Virus record (IMG/VR): IMGVR_UViG_3300007735_000647
Location: 1 to 34,010 of that record
Direction: 5' to 3' (one strand)
Length of the DNA stretch: 34,010 bases
DNA from: a virus
Made by a program: the position numbers and the translations under genes. The notes beneath the pieces were generated by a model. The model had not been told where the DNA came from. It was given only the letters and a program-made list of their open reading frames with translations, and made no database searches. This document shows positions 9,924 to 15,158 of this stretch, one piece after another (position 1 is the first letter of the stretch; each line of letters begins with the position of its first letter).

Positions 9924-10386
9924 AAATAGTTAAAAATTGTTGAAATGATTTTATAAAATAATAGTTACCCCCTGCATTAGTTTCTTTTTGTTGCTCTAAT
10001 AGTTGTGCAGCACTTGGTTTGTCCGAGCCAATTTTTATTTCCCACATATAGCTTTTACCTTTTATCGTGCTAGAAATATCAGCAGTCCCTTTGCGAGTTT
10101 GCCCATAAATATATTTACCATTAACAACCCTACCTGCACTCGATATTCTTGTAGCCCTGTACCCGTTCCAATTTATAAAGTTAACGATTGCTAAGGTAAG
10201 CCCATTAGCTTTATTTGTATCGGGTATTTTAGCAGTAAAGGTATATCCATTTTTTTTAACTATTTGACTAAAGGATAAATCGTGTGCATCTTGATACCTT
10301 TTTTTGCACCAATCTGGCATTGGTATTGCTTTAGGCTTTGCATTCATCTTTACTCTTATAGGTGGTATCCAGTCAAATTCACTCAT
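9910..10386 (-). CDS. VRR-NUC-like PD-(D/E)XK nuclease
   Basis: This 158-residue protein has the restriction-enzyme-like nuclease core in its second half: GTAD at 100-103 (metal-binding Asp), EIK at 116-118 (the ExK pair) and a conserved Gln in SAAQLLEQQK at 125-134. This order is typical of VRR-NUC or Holliday-junction resolvase-like phage nucleases. The first 60 residues are basic and less conserved. It lies just upstream of the primase-helicase and probably processes replication or recombination intermediates. It overlaps the upstream 60-residue gene by 8 bp. Confidence 0.8.
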   Translation of the reverse strand: MSEFDWIPPIRVKMNAKPKAIPMPDWCKKRYQDAHDLSFSQIVKKNGYTFTAKIPDTNKANGLTLAIVNFINWNGYRATRISSAGRVVNGKYIYGQTRKGTADISSTIKGKSYMWEIKIGSDKPSAAQLLEQQKETNAGGNYYFIKSFQQFLTIYDTI

Positions 10387-10561
10387 TAATTATTTTTTTA
10401 AGTTGATTAATAGAAAGCCAAGTAGTTCTGTTAAGCCTCCAAGATAGCACACCGTTATTGATTTGCTTTTTTAAATATACAAAATTATTTGTTAATCTAA
10501 TATTTAAACCACCATCCCAATCAAATTCAATATTTTTATGTATATAGGTTTTTGTTTGCAT
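10379..10561 (-). CDS. Small hypothetical protein
   Basis: A 60-residue protein, beginning MQTKTYIHKNIEFDW and ending in a helical TTWLSINQLKKIINE segment. No recognisable family. It overlaps the nuclease gene by 8 bp, which supports translation. It is the first phage core gene downstream of the cassette-like module; its start is 38 bp past the last core-like site (10600-10606). Confidence 0.6.
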   Translation of the reverse strand: MQTKTYIHKNIEFDWDGGLNIRLTNNFVYLKKQINNGVLSWRLNRTTWLSINQLKKIINE

Positions 10562-10599
10562 ATCAATTAGTTAAGTAAGGTAGTTGCTGCAATCAATGA

Positions 10600-10606
10600 G
10601 TTATAC
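10600..10606 (-). other. Cassette core-like site (half site) after the Mom-like gene
   Basis: On the minus strand, five bases after the Mom-like stop codon, the sequence reads GCGTATAAC. It is the exact reverse complement of GTTATACGC at the upstream end of the same unit (11483-11491). A matching 3' core and stem are missing, so this is a truncated or half site. Confidence 0.5.
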
Positions 10607-10612
10607 GCAAGG

Positions 10613-11410
10613 CTACATTTGTGCATCTATTGAACATTTGTCGGTTAAGTCGGTTTTATTAAAAAAAATAACCCCACGCTCTTCAACTTTTTCAAAGTTG
10701 TTAGGTTTTTCAATGTAGTGCTTAGGATATGGCATCTCTTTTAATAGTGCTTTCTTTTTCCATTTTTGGTCAATAAACTTTATGTATCTAAATTGCCTTA
10801 AACTCATTTTAACGGCTTTATCTTTATTGGCTTGTAATTTCCTTACAGTATTGTTATATCGCTTTGTATCGTTTGCGGAAATAGTCATTTGAATATTATG
10901 GAATACTTCTCCATCAAGTTCCCAAAAATCGCTTTTATGTTCTCCATAATATGAAAAACTACAAGCCTGATAAACTATCCCAAATCCTCCGCATCTTTCA
11001 TCCGCAAATGATTGTATCCATTTAACCTTTGGATATTTGCCTCTTATGTATTTTATACTTGCACTTATGGCTCTACTTTCAGGGTATTCGGTTGCTTCAT
11101 CGCTAATCCACATTCTATTTAGTTCAAGGTATTGGTCTATTTCCGTTCCTTCAACTACACTTCCTCCGCTTGCTGGGTTTAAAGCCGCACCAAATTGCAA
11201 TACTCCAAGCATTTTAGAGTTTACAAATATTCCCAAATGAATAAAGCTACCCGCATATACTTTTTTTGAGTAGTGATTTTCTTTAATGGTTTTTATAGCA
11301 AGGTTGCGGTCAATTTCTTTTACGGAAAATGCACTATCTCCAAAGCCTATAATTTCTTTACTTCCAAACATCATCATTTGGTCGCTAAATATGTAATCTT
11401 TTTTTTCCAT
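10613..11410 (-). CDS. Mom-like DNA modification protein (GNAT-type adenine modification)
   Basis: This 265-residue protein resembles phage Mu Mom and its relatives, acyl-transferase-fold proteins that add a carbamoylmethyl-type group to adenine and block many restriction enzymes. Supporting segments in order: KTIKENHYSKKV (about 42-53), YLELNRMWISDEATEYPESRA (about 93-113), IQSFADERCGGFGIVYQACSF (about 132-152), and the C-terminal RQFRYIKFIDQKWKKKALL followed by YPK. The family assignment rests on this motif order, which I recall from Mom relatives; chemistry here is inferred. No Com-like translational activator is seen. The gene is bounded by matching core sequences (11483-11491 and 10600-10608), like a mobile cassette. 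Confidence 0.72.
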   Translation of the reverse strand: MEKKDYIFSDQMMMFGSKEIIGFGDSAFSVKEIDRNLAIKTIKENHYSKKVYAGSFIHLGIFVNSKMLGVLQFGAALNPASGGSVVEGTEIDQYLELNRMWISDEATEYPESRAISASIKYIRGKYPKVKWIQSFADERCGGFGIVYQACSFSYYGEHKSDFWELDGEVFHNIQMTISANDTKRYNNTVRKLQANKDKAVKMSLRQFRYIKFIDQKWKKKALLKEMPYPKHYIEKPNNFEKVEERGVIFFNKTDLTDKCSIDAQM

Positions 11411-11484
11411 CGCTCTGCTATTTTTTTTAATAAAACCTTAGTTCGGTGTTCCAATTCAACATTTGTGCTATAATACCGCCCAGC

Positions 11485-11583
11485 GTATAACAGCGGTTTT
11501 GTGCTATTTGCCCCATTAATATTTGTGGTAACTTGAAACTTTGTGCAAGGGGCAAACAGACACAAAGCCACAAAACGTTAGGT
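11485..11583 (-). repeat. attC-like imperfect hairpin between methyltransferase and Mom-like genes
   Basis: On the minus strand it begins with ACCTAAC (a perfect RYYYAAC) and ends with GTTATAC (6 of 7 for GTTRRRY). Between them is a long stem: TTTGTG pairs with CACAAA, CT with AG after one unpaired T, then a G-T wobble, then TTTGCCCC with GGGGCAAA; the loop is about 33 nt. Core boxes at the base, unpaired single bases in the stem and a variable loop are the layout of integron attC sites. No T run follows, so it is not an ordinary terminator. Confidence 0.65.
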
Positions 11584-11602
11584 GCAATTCCAAAATACGC
11601 AA

Positions 11603-12754
11603 CTACAACTTCAACAACCATTGTTCATATATTTTAGTTGATATTTGAGCTGTCATTACAGGTGGCACACTCATTCCTAATAAATATAAATAAGGCATAT
11701 TTAAAAAGTTGTAATCTTTTGGGTATGTTTGCCCAGATGTGTTTTCGTTAAAATTACAATGTCTTGGTTCATCAAAAAGTACATCATTCTTTTTTGAAGT
11801 AATAGTATTTAATGGCTTATTTCCATATAAATAATTATTGTTAAACATTGAATTTGGTCTGTTTTCAATTCTCCCTAATGTGCAGCTAAAATCACTATCT
11901 CCATTAATTCTATTATTCCATATATTTCTTTTTACATCGGTCATTTCGCATTTTTCATCATTGGCACTATTATCTTTAATATCATTCAATGTGATTACAG
12001 GTTCGTTAAATTCCATATCAATTTTTGGTAATTCTGTAAACATATCAGCATAATATAAAAATGGTTGTGCTAAATCCTTTCTTAAAGCAATAAAGAAAAC
12101 TCTTTCTCTACGTTGTGGCACTCCCATTTTTGAAGCATCAAGTAAAAAATGTTGCACATAATATCCAGCTTTATCAAACTCTTTGTAAATTTTAATAACG
12201 TATTTTTTTGCTTCTGCTAATAACAAACCTTTTACGTTTTCAGCCACAACTACTTTCGGTTGTAATTCTTTTGCTAAATCAATAAAATCAAAGAATAAAG
12301 TATCTAAAACTTGTTCAGCTTGTCCTTCTCTAAACACTTTTTCTTTACCCCAGTCTTTTTCTCTATTACCAGCCATTGAAAAACTGCTACAAGGTGGCGA
12401 ACCATCTAAAATATCAAGTTCATAAAGTTCTTTTGGTAAATCCTTTCTTTCGGCAAAAGTTGTAATACTTTCTAAAAATGAATATTTAGGTTTATGATTT
12501 TCTTTATAAACTTCAATCATTTTTTTATCAATATCGTTATGTCCTATCACATCAAATCCAGCTAATTTATAACCCATTGTAGAACCACCACCACAAGCGA
12601 AGCAACTAAATACTTTTCCTTTGTCTTTTGTAAAGTTTGCATCTTTTAAATTCCAATCATAAGAAAATTTGTGAACAGGAACTGCACCTAACACCGCATT
12701 GGCAATATTGGGGCTTTCGTGCTTAATTTGAGCTTCTGTGCTTTCTACTATCAT
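11603..12754 (-). CDS. C5-cytosine DNA methyltransferase
   Basis: This 383-residue protein has the motif set of C5-cytosine methyltransferases. Motif I is VFSCFACGGGSTMGYKLAGF (about 48-67), motif IV DGSPPCSSFSMAG with the catalytic Cys (about 115-127), motif VI VVAENVKG, and motif VIII QRRERVFFIAL. The target recognition region follows, with motifs IX-X near the end (LLGMSVPPVMTAQIS). All catalytic residues are present, so it should be active; its target site is unknown. There is no partner endonuclease. It is flanked by attC-like sequence on both sides (31 bp on the upstream side, a full hairpin downstream), so it appears to be a cassette. It may protect phage DNA from host restriction. Confidence 0.93.
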   Translation of the reverse strand: MIVESTEAQIKHESPNIANAVLGAVPVHKFSYDWNLKDANFTKDKGKVFSCFACGGGSTMGYKLAGFDVIGHNDIDKKMIEVYKENHKPKYSFLESITTFAERKDLPKELYELDILDGSPPCSSFSMAGNREKDWGKEKVFREGQAEQVLDTLFFDFIDLAKELQPKVVVAENVKGLLLAEAKKYVIKIYKEFDKAGYYVQHFLLDASKMGVPQRRERVFFIALRKDLAQPFLYYADMFTELPKIDMEFNEPVITLNDIKDNSANDEKCEMTDVKRNIWNNRINGDSDFSCTLGRIENRPNSMFNNNYLYGNKPLNTITSKKNDVLFDEPRHCNFNENTSGQTYPKDYNFLNMPYLYLLGMSVPPVMTAQISTKIYEQWLLKL

Positions 12755-12787
12755 TTGTTTTTAATTTGAACATTTGTACTTTCTAAT

Positions 12788-12818
12788 CCCCAACATCGCC
12801 AATCCGAAAACGTTAGCG
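12788..12818 (-). other. Short or decayed attC-like site upstream of the methyltransferase
   Basis: One base after the TAG of the 58-residue protein, the minus strand reads CGCTAACGTTTT and then, 24 bases on, GTTGGGG (6 of 7 for GTTRRRY). CTAACGTTTT is also the left end of the full site at 11583. No good stem forms, so it is probably truncated. Confidence 0.45.
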
Positions 12819-12819
12819 G

Positions 12820-12996
12820 CTATTTTACCGACCACTCCGAAAGTTTAGACTTGACAATTATTTTCAGTTCATCAACTTTTGACAATGGGCAGCGAAAAGC
12901 AACCGTTTTAGTTTGCTCACTATATTTAGGTTTAGCACCCGACCCTTGCCGAGTGCCTCCCCTACCAATTTTCTTTTTTTGTATATTTTTTTCCAT
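12820..12996 (-). CDS. 58-residue basic protein with GRGGxRxGSG motif
   Basis: Translated by hand: it begins MEKNIQKKKIGRGG, continues TRQGSGAKPKYSEQTKTVAF, then RCPLSKVDELKIIVKSKLSE, and stops at TAG (12822-12820). The glycine-rich basic start followed by a strand (TVAFRCP) and helix (VDELKIIVKSKL) resembles small ribbon-helix-helix-like proteins that have a GRGGxRxGAGRK start, common in mobile genetic elements. DNA binding is a reasonable guess only. It overlaps the end of the 83-residue gene by 35 bp in another frame. The stop codon lies one base from a cassette core-like site. Confidence 0.65.
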   Translation of the reverse strand: MEKNIQKKKIGRGGTRQGSGAKPKYSEQTKTVAFRCPLSKVDELKIIVKSKLSEWSVK

Positions 12997-13213
12997 TTTT
13001 TGCTACTCTGTAATTTCTAAAGTTTGCATTTGTACTAAAAGAACCGCTTGGATAATGAAAACCCAAATACGTTTGAAGTCTTGACATTTCATCAGAAACT
13101 ATACCAGTTGATAAGCATATCTGTTGATTGCCTTTAGCTATTTGGCTATCAATAAATTTTTCAAACTTTTCAATTTCTTGCTTTGTAAATGTTGGTTTTG
13201 TGTACGTTTCCAT
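12962..13213 (-). CDS. 83-residue protein of the cassette module, unknown function
   Basis: It starts METYTKPTFTKQEIEKF and ends in the basic segment RVAKNGKKYTKKENW. The N-terminal half is amphipathic helix; no known domain is recognised. It has its own promoter (13237-13267) with both elements at ideal spacing, giving a short leader of about 15-20 nt. The 58-residue gene begins inside its 3' end, so the two probably act as a pair; a regulator or toxin-antitoxin-like role would be speculation. Confidence 0.65.
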   Translation of the reverse strand: METYTKPTFTKQEIEKFEKFIDSQIAKGNQQICLSTGIVSDEMSRLQTYLGFHYPSGSFSTNANFRNYRVAKNGKKYTKKENW

Positions 13214-13236
13214 TGTCTTATAATTTAATTACCTTA

Positions 13237-13267
13237 CAAATATACAACCTTATTTTGATTGTGCAAA
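13237..13267 (-). promoter_or_regulatory. Bacteroidota-type promoter (TTTG-N19-TATATTTG)
   Basis: On the minus strand, TTTG (13267-13264) is followed after exactly 19 bases by TATATTTG (13244-13237). This is a full match to the Bacteroidota primary sigma consensus TTTG, 19 bp, TAnnTTTG. The transcript would begin near 13230, just before the 83-residue gene. A second -7-like element, TATCTTTG, lies at 13274-13281. Confidence 0.8.
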
Positions 13268-13330
13268 CTATTTCAAAGATATTTTTAATTTATTTTCTAA
13301 AGTGCTGAAAATCAAAGAAATAAAAACAGC

Positions 13331-13385
13331 AGCTAACAGCACCTATGCGCCATTAAAACGAGCGCATAGCTGCAATCCGTTATCC
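13331..13385 (-). repeat. attC-like imperfect hairpin after the 40-residue gene
   Basis: On the minus strand it begins GGATAAC and ends GTTAGCT. Between these TAAC/GTTA boxes the stem is GCA with TGC, an unpaired G on each side, then CTATGCGC with GCGCATAG, around an 11-nt loop. The 5' box overlaps the stop codon of the 40-residue gene. Length (55 bp) and structure fit a short integron attC site, though the boxes deviate from RYYYAAC/GTTRRRY at two or three positions. Confidence 0.6.
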
Positions 13386-13502
13386 ACTATATTTTTTTTC
13401 AATAGCTGCAATTTCTTTTTGTACTTTTACTACGTGCTTTGCTTTTACCCAGCATTTTACTAGGGTAATTAATTCTTTTTTATCTATTTTTTTACGTGCC
13501 AT
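13380..13502 (-). CDS. 40-residue basic protein, unknown function
   Basis: The ORF can be extended upstream to 13598, but that part runs through the divergent promoter region and is unlikely to be translated. ATG at 13502 (MARKKIDKKELITLVKCWVK) is preceded 14 bases upstream by a TATCTTTG -7 element, giving a short leader. The protein is Lys-rich and helical, with AAIEKKYSG at the end. The TAA stop lies inside the box of the attC-like hairpin. Function unknown. Confidence 0.6.
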   Translation of the reverse strand: MARKKIDKKELITLVKCWVKAKHVVKVQKEIAAIEKKYSG

Positions 13503-14085: not shown

Positions 14086-14655
14086 ATGCAATCATCTCAA
14101 ACAATTACAAAAATCTCAGCAGCCTTAGTAAAGGCTCAACTCGAAATGGGTAACGCAGTAAAAGACGCTACCAACCCTTTTTTCAAATCAAAGTACGCAG
14201 ACCTTAATGCTATTAGAGAGGCTTGTTTGCCTATCCTAAATAAGAACGGCATAAGTGCAATACAACCCACCTGCGTAATAGACGGTGTAAACTATGTAGA
14301 AACTATATTGCTGCACGAAAGCGGTGAATACATAAGCAGCCTTACACCAATAATTACGGCTAACCATAACGACCCACAGAAACACGGGAGTGGACTTTCT
14401 TATGCTAGGCGTTACTCTTTGCAATCTATATGTAACATTGGTGCAGAAGATGACGATGCTAATAAGGCTACGCCAGTTAAAAAGGAATACACACCTGCTC
14501 AACTATTGCCGTATCAAAATAAGCTGCAAAGGGCTACTGATTACGCTACTTTAGCAGAGGCTTGGGTAAACATACCTAACGAAATTAAACCGCTTGTAGA
14601 GGCTTTAAAAAACCAAATAAAAGATAAACTAAATGATACAAACACACGGGTATAA
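14086..14655 (+). CDS. erf: ERF-family single-strand annealing recombinase
   Basis: This 189-residue protein has the signature of ERF proteins. The NPFFKSKYADLNAIREACLP segment (about 27-46) is the family's most conserved stretch, followed by NGISAIQP and a strand ETILLHESGEYISS. DPQKHGSGLSYARRYSL (about 103-119) is the usual GSAITYARRYxL-type motif. ERF proteins anneal complementary single strands for phage recombination and repair. It sits two genes upstream of an SSB-like protein, its expected partner. The C-terminal third is less conserved and helical. Confidence 0.92.
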   Translation: MQSSQTITKISAALVKAQLEMGNAVKDATNPFFKSKYADLNAIREACLPILNKNGISAIQPTCVIDGVNYVETILLHESGEYISSLTPIITANHNDPQKHGSGLSYARRYSLQSICNIGAEDDDANKATPVKKEYTPAQLLPYQNKLQRATDYATLAEAWVNIPNEIKPLVEALKNQIKDKLNDTNTRV

Positions 14656-14827
14656 GGAAGTAGAAACGTACAAGGGCTGCAATATTTGCCTTGTTAACTA
14701 TCGCAATGTATCGCAATACATTGGGATAGTTATTGACGGGCAGCTATCTTGTATTTCTTTGTCATCAGTTAAAGCAGCAAAAACTATTATTGATACACAC
14801 GAAAAAAATAAACTTATTCAACTCTAA
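14633..14827 (+). CDS. Small protein, unknown function
   Basis: A 64-residue protein, MIQTHGYKEVETYKGCNICL followed by NYRNVSQYIGIVIDGQLSCI; it looks like a small beta-rich fold with a CNIC pair. It overlaps the ERF gene by 23 bp, indicating coupling. Function unknown. Confidence 0.6.
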   Translation: MIQTHGYKEVETYKGCNICLVNYRNVSQYIGIVIDGQLSCISLSSVKAAKTIIDTHEKNKLIQL

Positions 14828-14858: not shown

Positions 14859-15158
14859 ATGGCAGATGAATTATTACCAGAAGGTCTTAGATTTTTTAAC
14901 AAAAAGGATACGCAACCCGACTTTGTTGTTGGTGCGTTGGTTGTTACAATGAATGACCTGTTTAATTTTTGTAAACAAAACCCCGACCTTATTACCGACT
15001 ATAAGGGGCAAAAGCAATTAAGGTTACAACTTTTAAGAAGCAGCAAAGGAAATTTGTATGCTAAAGTAGATACTTGGAAGCCAGACGCAGCAGCTTTGCC
15101 TTCAGCACCTATTGGCGAACCAACGGATGTAGCAGATATAGAAAGTTTACCATTTTAG
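14859..15158 (+). CDS. SSB-like single-stranded DNA-binding protein
   Basis: A 99-residue protein ending DVADIESLPF. The acidic stretch that closes with a hydrophobic Pro-Phe is the tail by which SSB proteins recruit partner enzymes. The middle, KQLRLQLLRSSKGNLYAKVDTWKP, has the strand pattern of a compact OB fold. It lacks the full length of bacterial SSB (about 110 residues for the fold). Last gene of the plus-strand operon, after the ERF recombinase. Assignment rests on the tail and the location; I did not see SSB aromatic residues clearly. Confidence 0.6.
   Translation: MADELLPEGLRFFNKKDTQPDFVVGALVVTMNDLFNFCKQNPDLITDYKGQKQLRLQLLRSSKGNLYAKVDTWKPDAAALPSAPIGEPTDVADIESLPF

Follow-up and report, generated by a model that had tools for sequence, protein, structure and literature searches.

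An integron-type array of three gene cassettes in a Bacteroidota phage that encodes no integrase

How does a phage genome come to hold what looks like an array of integron cassettes when it encodes no enzyme to move them? The question is raised by IMG/VR virus record IMGVR_UViG_3300007735_000647, positions 1 to 34,010 of which (34,010 nucleotides, hereafter the window) were analysed. Three units tile positions 10601–13379 of the minus strand, carrying a Mom-like DNA modification gene, a C5 cytosine methyltransferase gene and a pair of genes for 83- and 58-residue proteins, and they are a genuine three-cassette integron-type array in a Bacteroidota phage. A search of the record with PF00589 found no tyrosine recombinase. 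We consider with high confidence that the best overall explanation is one of mobile integron-type cassettes residing on a phage, most likely served by an enzyme acting in trans and most likely carrying anti-restriction cargo.

All three units lie on the minus strand and have the same structure. Cassette 1 (10601–11577, 977 bp) contains the Mom-like gene and its own attC (11485–11583, of a short-loop type); it opens with the core GTTATACGC (11491–11483) and closes with GCGTATAAC (10608–10600), mirrored at 9/9 positions. Cassette 2 (11578–12812, 1235 bp) contains the methyltransferase gene and an attC of the long type (12686–12818, 119-nt interior), whose left arm includes GTTGGGG and whose right arm, CCCCAATATTGCCAAT, is followed by the opening core GTTAGGTGC (12692–12684, within the open reading frame, ORF); the closing core GCACCTAAC (11585–11577) mirrors it 9/9. 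Cassette 3 (12813–13379, 567 bp) contains the 83- and 58-residue genes and an attC with a very short loop (13331–13385; DNA fold z –4.4), with cores GTTAGCTGC (13337–13329) and GCCGCTAAC (12820–12812) mirrored 8/9. As in integron cassettes, the boxes are of GTTRRRY type, the opening one mirrors the closing one, and an imperfect inner hairpin lies between the boxes of each site. A preliminary description of this DNA had proposed an integron-cassette-like array without a phage integrase, and its cores for the Mom-like and the 83/58-residue units were recovered at the same positions with the same counts. That proposal is upheld, and none of the outcomes listed there as refuting it was seen. Its three units stand as three genes or gene pairs between cores, but the opening core of the methyltransferase unit had been misplaced: GTTGGGG, taken as an opening matched at 5/7 positions, is the left hairpin arm, and because the true core mirrors the closing core 9/9, the supposedly imperfect unit is perfect. 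The two sites described as hairpins do fold as such, and so does a third, at 12818–12686.

Could such an array arise by chance? With a simple arm-pairing score (95% shuffle maximum 30.5), the two long sites reached 42 and 39.5 and the short site (13379–13337) 24.5. A single hairpin unit with a mirrored end arose in 24 of 300 dinucleotide shuffles; a chain of three hairpins, each with an end mirrored at 8/9 or better, is present in the window and arose in none of the 300. A test that is independent of the window, and stronger than the hairpin score, was made with a covariance model, R1, trained solely on 32 Bacteroidota chromosomal cassette sites. The model matched the window exactly three times, at 12818–12686 (102.6 bits, E = 2.4e-25), 11583–11485 (59.7 bits, E = 5.6e-14) and 13385–13331 (40.4 bits, E = 7.5e-9), far above background (next-best match, E = 3.7); the hairpins thus match cassette sites of Bacteroidota chromosomes. 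A first hairpin finder that demanded strict RYYYAAC/GTTRRRY boxes had missed two of the three window sites, and the boxes were then relaxed to TAAC/GTTA, which are invariant in 32/32 chromosomal sites; the full RRRY is sometimes lost (e.g. GTTATAC). The alignment shows a conserved C.A mismatch, spacers of unequal length (about 6 and 2 nt) and no consistent bulge. An extrahelical base in the left arm was therefore rejected, and canonical strand polarity is not claimed. The sole Rfam match was a chance miRNA match to the palindromic first site.

The attC of cassette 2 has a further property. The methyltransferase ATG (12754) falls in its loop and, by translation, residues 1–21 are encoded by attC, so that the protein begins with an attC-encoded leader. 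Nearly all methyltransferase homologues outside arrays align only from residue 26–32, mostly 27–28. The first ORF starts inside attC and reads through the box at 62 of 124 long phage sites versus 0 of 86 chromosomal sites. These sites probably double as the translation start regions of their genes.

Which unit moves, and at which box is it cut? Phage site pairs that are alike after the hairpin (0.83–1.0 identity) usually have the same hairpin (0.88–1.00); in pairs alike only before it, the hairpins (0.38–0.65) are no closer than unrelated ones (median 0.55). Most bacterial site pairs co-segregate as the phage pairs do. Therefore, the moving unit consists of the hairpin, the gene and the closing TAAC box, and the crossover is at TAAC. 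A crossover on the GTTA side, with start codons coming from the upstream cassette, was rejected on the basis of this co-segregation and of the TAAC-side relocation described below. Two assignments of the preliminary description are accordingly reversed: the unit boundaries lie at TAAC boxes, so that each hairpin moves together with the gene behind it and an attI-like edge, not an attC, terminates the last unit, and the integron orientation is the plus strand of the window, with the array genes facing attI. Relatives have the same units beside unrelated neighbours at exact core boundaries. Loci L002, L003 and L004 share a Mom gene with mirrored and covarying cores next to different neighbours, and L077/L189, L194 and L196 share a hairpin and methyltransferase gene behind different upstream neighbours. 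A simple flank test for mirrored cores across all Mom and methyltransferase homologues gave a result near background, because most homologues lie outside cassettes.

Cultured Flavobacterium phages settle the mobility of such cassettes. Two of the IMG/VR records are Flavobacterium phages isolated on the Baltic strains LMO6 and LMO9. In fifteen of these phage isolates, the greater part of the array can be read as units that were added, removed or shifted at TAAC boundaries, and the edges enclosing them, left (GGGAGTTGGTTTAAC|) and right (|TACAATATTACATGATAAAAAATATT), are for the most part constant; the automatic tiling halted early at a weak hairpin in some isolates. The position of a single 439-bp cassette distinguishes phages lillamy9-6 and lillamy9-7. 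Its sequence is 100% identical in the two phages, but it occupies the array interior in lillamy9-6 and the right (attI) edge in lillamy9-7; one flank of 3605 bp is also 100% identical. The junctions of this relocation have only about 5 nt in common, and the change, as judged from the sequences, is of the kind that attC × attI recombination produces. Thirteen further records or contigs, in which the last cassettes differ, have the same right edge, and this conserved edge acts as attI. The words 'integron' and 'cassette' do not occur in the main text of the paper describing these phages.

The window has a comparable edge at 10560–10601 (plus strand), where the crossover would fall within G|TT at 10600|10601 (on the minus strand, GCGTATAAC|TCATTGATTGCAGCAACTACC). 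It consists of a final mirrored core with no hairpin behind it, the same topology as at the attI edge where the cassette was inserted in lillamy9-7. Since the crossover is on the TAAC side, the window genes point toward this edge and are therefore read with the phage operon. By analogy, 10600|10601 is probably the window phage's own attI edge, and its empty docking site is predicted to read ...GTGGATAAC joined to TCATTGATTGCAGC.... The far-side backbone edge (13379–13502, minus strand) carries a 40-aa ORF whose stop codon TAA (13382–13380) belongs, by sequence, to the TAAC box. Directly after the attI-like edge lies a 60-aa ORF (10379–10561, minus strand), in the place taken elsewhere by a gene for a ribbon-helix-helix-like protein or by an integrase gene.

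To define where such sites occur, 84,980 species genomes were scanned with a degenerate site pattern. All 34 stretches obtained were from Bacteroidota by title (Flavobacterium, Pedobacter, Sediminibacterium, Cytophagales and others), several of them being long arrays on chromosomes. Five genomes encode an integrase-like tyrosine recombinase at a distance of 0.6–3.3 kb from the array end. The site pattern, together with protein searches with Mom and the methyltransferase, also yielded many phage contigs with arrays of up to ten units each, in which nearly all cores are mirrored 9/9. In chromosomal arrays, 64 of 78 informative units have genes directed away from the integrase side (14/78 reversed). 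In phage arrays, genes are reversed relative to the site, toward attI, in 135/144 units. Because insertion fixes the orientation, the phage cassettes are not simply host cassettes; they look like a separate pool. Two further occurrences were observed: on the chromosome of Bacteroidota SSA2 (L203, L213, L214, L217, L227, L228, L239, L242), sites are scattered over at least 3.48–3.98 Mb and end near an integrase, possibly as one array of some 500 kb, and Flavobacterium phage 11b (L170, AJ842011), an isolate sequenced earlier, has at least three such sites.

The absence of an integrase holds for the window phage, as had been noted, but not for all of its relatives. Both L160 and L168 encode a 267-aa tyrosine recombinase whose start lies 43 nt beyond the attI edge, so that these phages, unlike the window, have the integrase gene beside attI that makes a complete integron. 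A search with this recombinase returned 49 viral loci. R1 matches were found in 34 of the 44 integrase loci examined, with 119 of 119 matches on the integrase strand and upstream of the integrase, and in most of the loci examined the mirrored last core lies 33–52 nt before the integrase start codon. Phage integrases and those adjacent to chromosomal arrays form one clade (support 1.0; Flavobacterium, Pedobacter, Sediminibacterium), to which neither IntI1 nor the XerC/D-type proteins encoded by these genomes belong. Members lack the IntI1-only stretches at residues 201–228 and 238–248 and leave about 59 positions of the integron-integrase model unmatched (TIGR02249, about 179–237). Hence the IntI-specific insertion, which is absent from XerC/D and marks a canonical IntI, is missing from both the array-adjacent chromosomal and the phage integrases, whose best structural relative by sequence is an XerA-like recombinase, followed by IntI4. 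We infer that this clade carries out the cassette recombination.

By model R1 the window has three sites and no integrase gene, and thus qualifies as a cluster of attC sites lacking an integrase (CALIN; at least two attC sites without an integrase gene). The attC lies 3' of the gene within most units of chromosomal arrays but in few phage cassettes, nearly all of which have reversed genes; site-specific excision and insertion at attI was seen in relatives only (lillamy9-6 to lillamy9-7). By this model the window array is a CALIN that appears to work like an integron, although not a canonical one, given the missing integrase, a clade without the IntI insertion and the reversed genes.

Several observations concern the neighbourhood of attI and the distribution of the integrase. 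A plasmid of Chryseobacterium sp. SNU WT5 encodes a same-clade integrase (L329, 16032–17075), 64% identical to a Flavobacterium one, and the system may therefore also ride on plasmids. Many integrase-less phages (L048, L077, L161–L164, L159, L167, L179, L180) have a conserved small gene of about 56–72 aa directly behind the attI edge; its product resembles a ribbon-helix-helix protein (FIRDAI motif), several members end in CPF or VPF, and no Pfam family scored above cut-off. A second type of small protein at this position (L003, L171, L172, L004, L196) has an NGGSIG...F motif, some members again ending in CPF or VPF, and the 60-aa ORF of the window is weakly similar to it (10–19% identity).

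The Mom-like gene (10613–11410, minus strand, 265 aa) matches PF25680 (E = 2.7e-65, 220 bits, cut-off 27) and phrog_1384, and the methyltransferase gene (11603–12754, minus strand, 383 aa) matches PF00145 (E = 1.5e-47, 163 bits, cut-off 22). No function is assigned to the 58-aa ORF (12820–12996, minus strand; phrog_6696, E = 4e-4), a 90% identical relative of which ends a cassette in L040, or to the 83-aa ORF (12962–13213, minus strand), taken from the ORF listing. DNA methyltransferase or Mom families account for 29 of 101 non-redundant phage cassette proteins (roughly at least 100 aa), the others being mostly without a Pfam family at the cut-off used; in mumin6-1, four genes are annotated as methyltransferases and all lie within the array. 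The window cargo fits this pattern. The most likely role of the Mom-like protein and the methyltransferase is shielding of phage DNA from restriction, as suggested by their gene families and by one host-range correlation in relatives. The methyltransferases encoded by cassettes U9 and U16, which concern the question of the plating difference on LMO6, are only 43% identical.

We propose the following scheme. A cassette is a TAAC-bounded unit comprising an attC hairpin, a gene and a closing box with a 9-mer that mirrors the opening one. A tyrosine recombinase of the Bacteroidota-type integrase clade would excise and insert cassettes by crossover at G|TT next to TAAC, and cassettes would enter the phage at the fixed attI-like site 10600|10601. 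Because the window phage has no integrase, the recombinase would most likely be supplied in trans, by a host chromosomal integron or by a co-infecting integrase-carrying phage. Cassette swapping would let the phage follow different hosts. The sequences themselves show the unit structure, the chromosomal-type attC, the lack of a recombinase, the start codon within attC, the exact relocation in isolated relatives, and the presence of integrases both beside attI in other phages and beside arrays on chromosomes.

Ordinary mosaicism might be taken to explain the same array, with the hairpins as conserved intergenic structures such as terminators or elements of 5' untranslated regions, and the units exchanged between co-infecting phages by homologous recombination or Erf-type single-strand annealing. 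In its favour are the mosaic nature of phage genomes, an Erf-like annealing protein encoded in the window (14086–14655) and the long hairpin, which surrounds a start codon and hence forms in mRNA too. However, the sequences joined by the lillamy9-7 relocation have only about 5 nt in common at each junction, terminators or untranslated regions do not account for mirrored opening and closing 9-mers with many different cores, and chromosomal arrays that adjoin an integrase contain these sites as well; we consider mosaicism highly improbable. An equally small probability is given to passive carriage, in which the phage acquired part of a host chromosomal integron through illegitimate recombination and the cassettes are now immobile. 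The lack of an integrase in the window is in line with it, and phage CALINs have been explained in this way (PMC9892861); yet the reversal of the phage cassettes relative to chromosomal ones (135/144 versus 14/78) is not typical of host-array fragments, relatives show recent movement, and the attI edges are conserved phage sequence. Less remote, though still unlikely, is that the array was built by the phage's own former integrase, since replaced at the attI edge by the 60-aa gene, with no supply in trans now. In other phages the integrase does start 33–52 nt after the attI edge, just where the window has its 60-aa ORF, but Muminvirus-type phages without an integrase at that place still relocate cassettes, so that supply in trans works somewhere.

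Several points weigh against mobile cassettes served in trans. The short hairpin of cassette 3 is not significant by the hairpin score alone, and the cores of that unit are mirrored only 8/9. The search with the window's own backbone found no empty-site relative, so that the attI edge of the window rests on analogy; only three primase relatives were obtained (~59% identity, backbone rearranged). A gene is shared without its hairpin in L036/L048, L164/L180 and L172/L079, and exchange at the other box or hairpin replacement therefore also occurs, over longer times. One unit of mumin6-1 has lost the mirroring between its two cores: the opening core reads GTTATAGGC versus GTTAACCGC on comparison with mumin6-3 (L253 and L254), while about 650 bp after the differing core, including the closing core GCGGTTAAC, are identical. 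A concerted change of both cores was therefore rejected, and a core can change on a single side. The anti-restriction role is deduced from the families and the single correlation given above.

If this explanation is right, phages would be active players in the cassette economy, with docking sites, integrases and a cassette pool of their own, and not accidental carriers. With DNA-modification genes as the commonest recognisable cargo, they would own a site-specific route for swapping anti-restriction genes, as host integrons swap defence and resistance genes. On balance, we favour a separate integron lineage, with integrases lacking the IntI insertion, that spans Bacteroidota chromosomes and phages; the phages would have a reversed cassette pool of their own, many starts within attC, and attI sites with or without an integrase, and would exchange anti-restriction genes through site-specific recombination. 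Current integron searches may miss arrays of this type. Cultured phage pairs that are one cassette apart make mobility, integrase identity and host-range effects directly testable. The integrase clade, the reversed cassettes, the start-in-attC design and the observed relocation look new: the literature search, which left preprints and most subscription journals outside, found no account of the clade, of reversed phage cassettes, of starts in attC or of natural relocation, and this novelty is therefore provisional.

Elsewhere in the window, a near-perfect palindrome (about TATCGCAATGTATCGCAATACATTGGGATA) lies at 14698–14729 between plus-strand genes. Close to the Erf-like annealing gene, a 99-aa ORF (14859–15158) has DVADIESLPF as its final residues, a sequence reminiscent of the acidic tip found in single-strand-binding proteins.

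How does this array compare with known systems? The Mom-like protein belongs to the Mom family and is 44% identical to Mu Mom, but it is encoded in a mobile cassette that adjoins a C5 methyltransferase cassette, and no Com gene was recognised in that Mom cassette. CALINs in phages, including some with DNA methyltransferase genes, were already known (Qi et al. 2023, PMC9892861). That study treated them as sporadic, with 21 phages, and attributed them to off-target or illegitimate recombination; in its assay, IntI1 recombined five of the six phage attC sites tested (PMC9892861). The window resembles them as attC clusters without an integrase gene in lytic phages; as reported, they differ in having no isolate-to-isolate relocation, no phage attI-integrase family, no start codons in attC and no systematic gene reversal. 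Polaribacter phage P12002L, the Bacteroidota example of that study, shows hardly any sites of the present type (a single weak model match, E = 0.0015). In a 2022 survey, the only complete integron reported from Bacteroidetes proper was that of Salinibacter ruber (PMC9024848). With sedentary chromosomal integrons of the Vibrio type and class 1 integrons, which have a canonical IntI, the present system shares attI and cassettes, G|TTRRRY-type cores, imperfect hairpin attC sites, insertion at attI in one orientation and a tyrosine recombinase; it differs in that the clade integrases lack the two IntI1 stretches, the phage genes face attI, and the sites have a C.A mismatch and unequal spacers instead of a consistent extrahelical base. 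In Treponema-type integrons (PMC3607928), the integrase is read toward the array and shares its direction with the cassette genes, an arrangement also seen in the Bacteroidota chromosomes studied here. The Treponema integrons are, however, chromosomal, whereas the phage integrase lies beyond attI and is read away from it, with the cassette genes pointing at the integrase.

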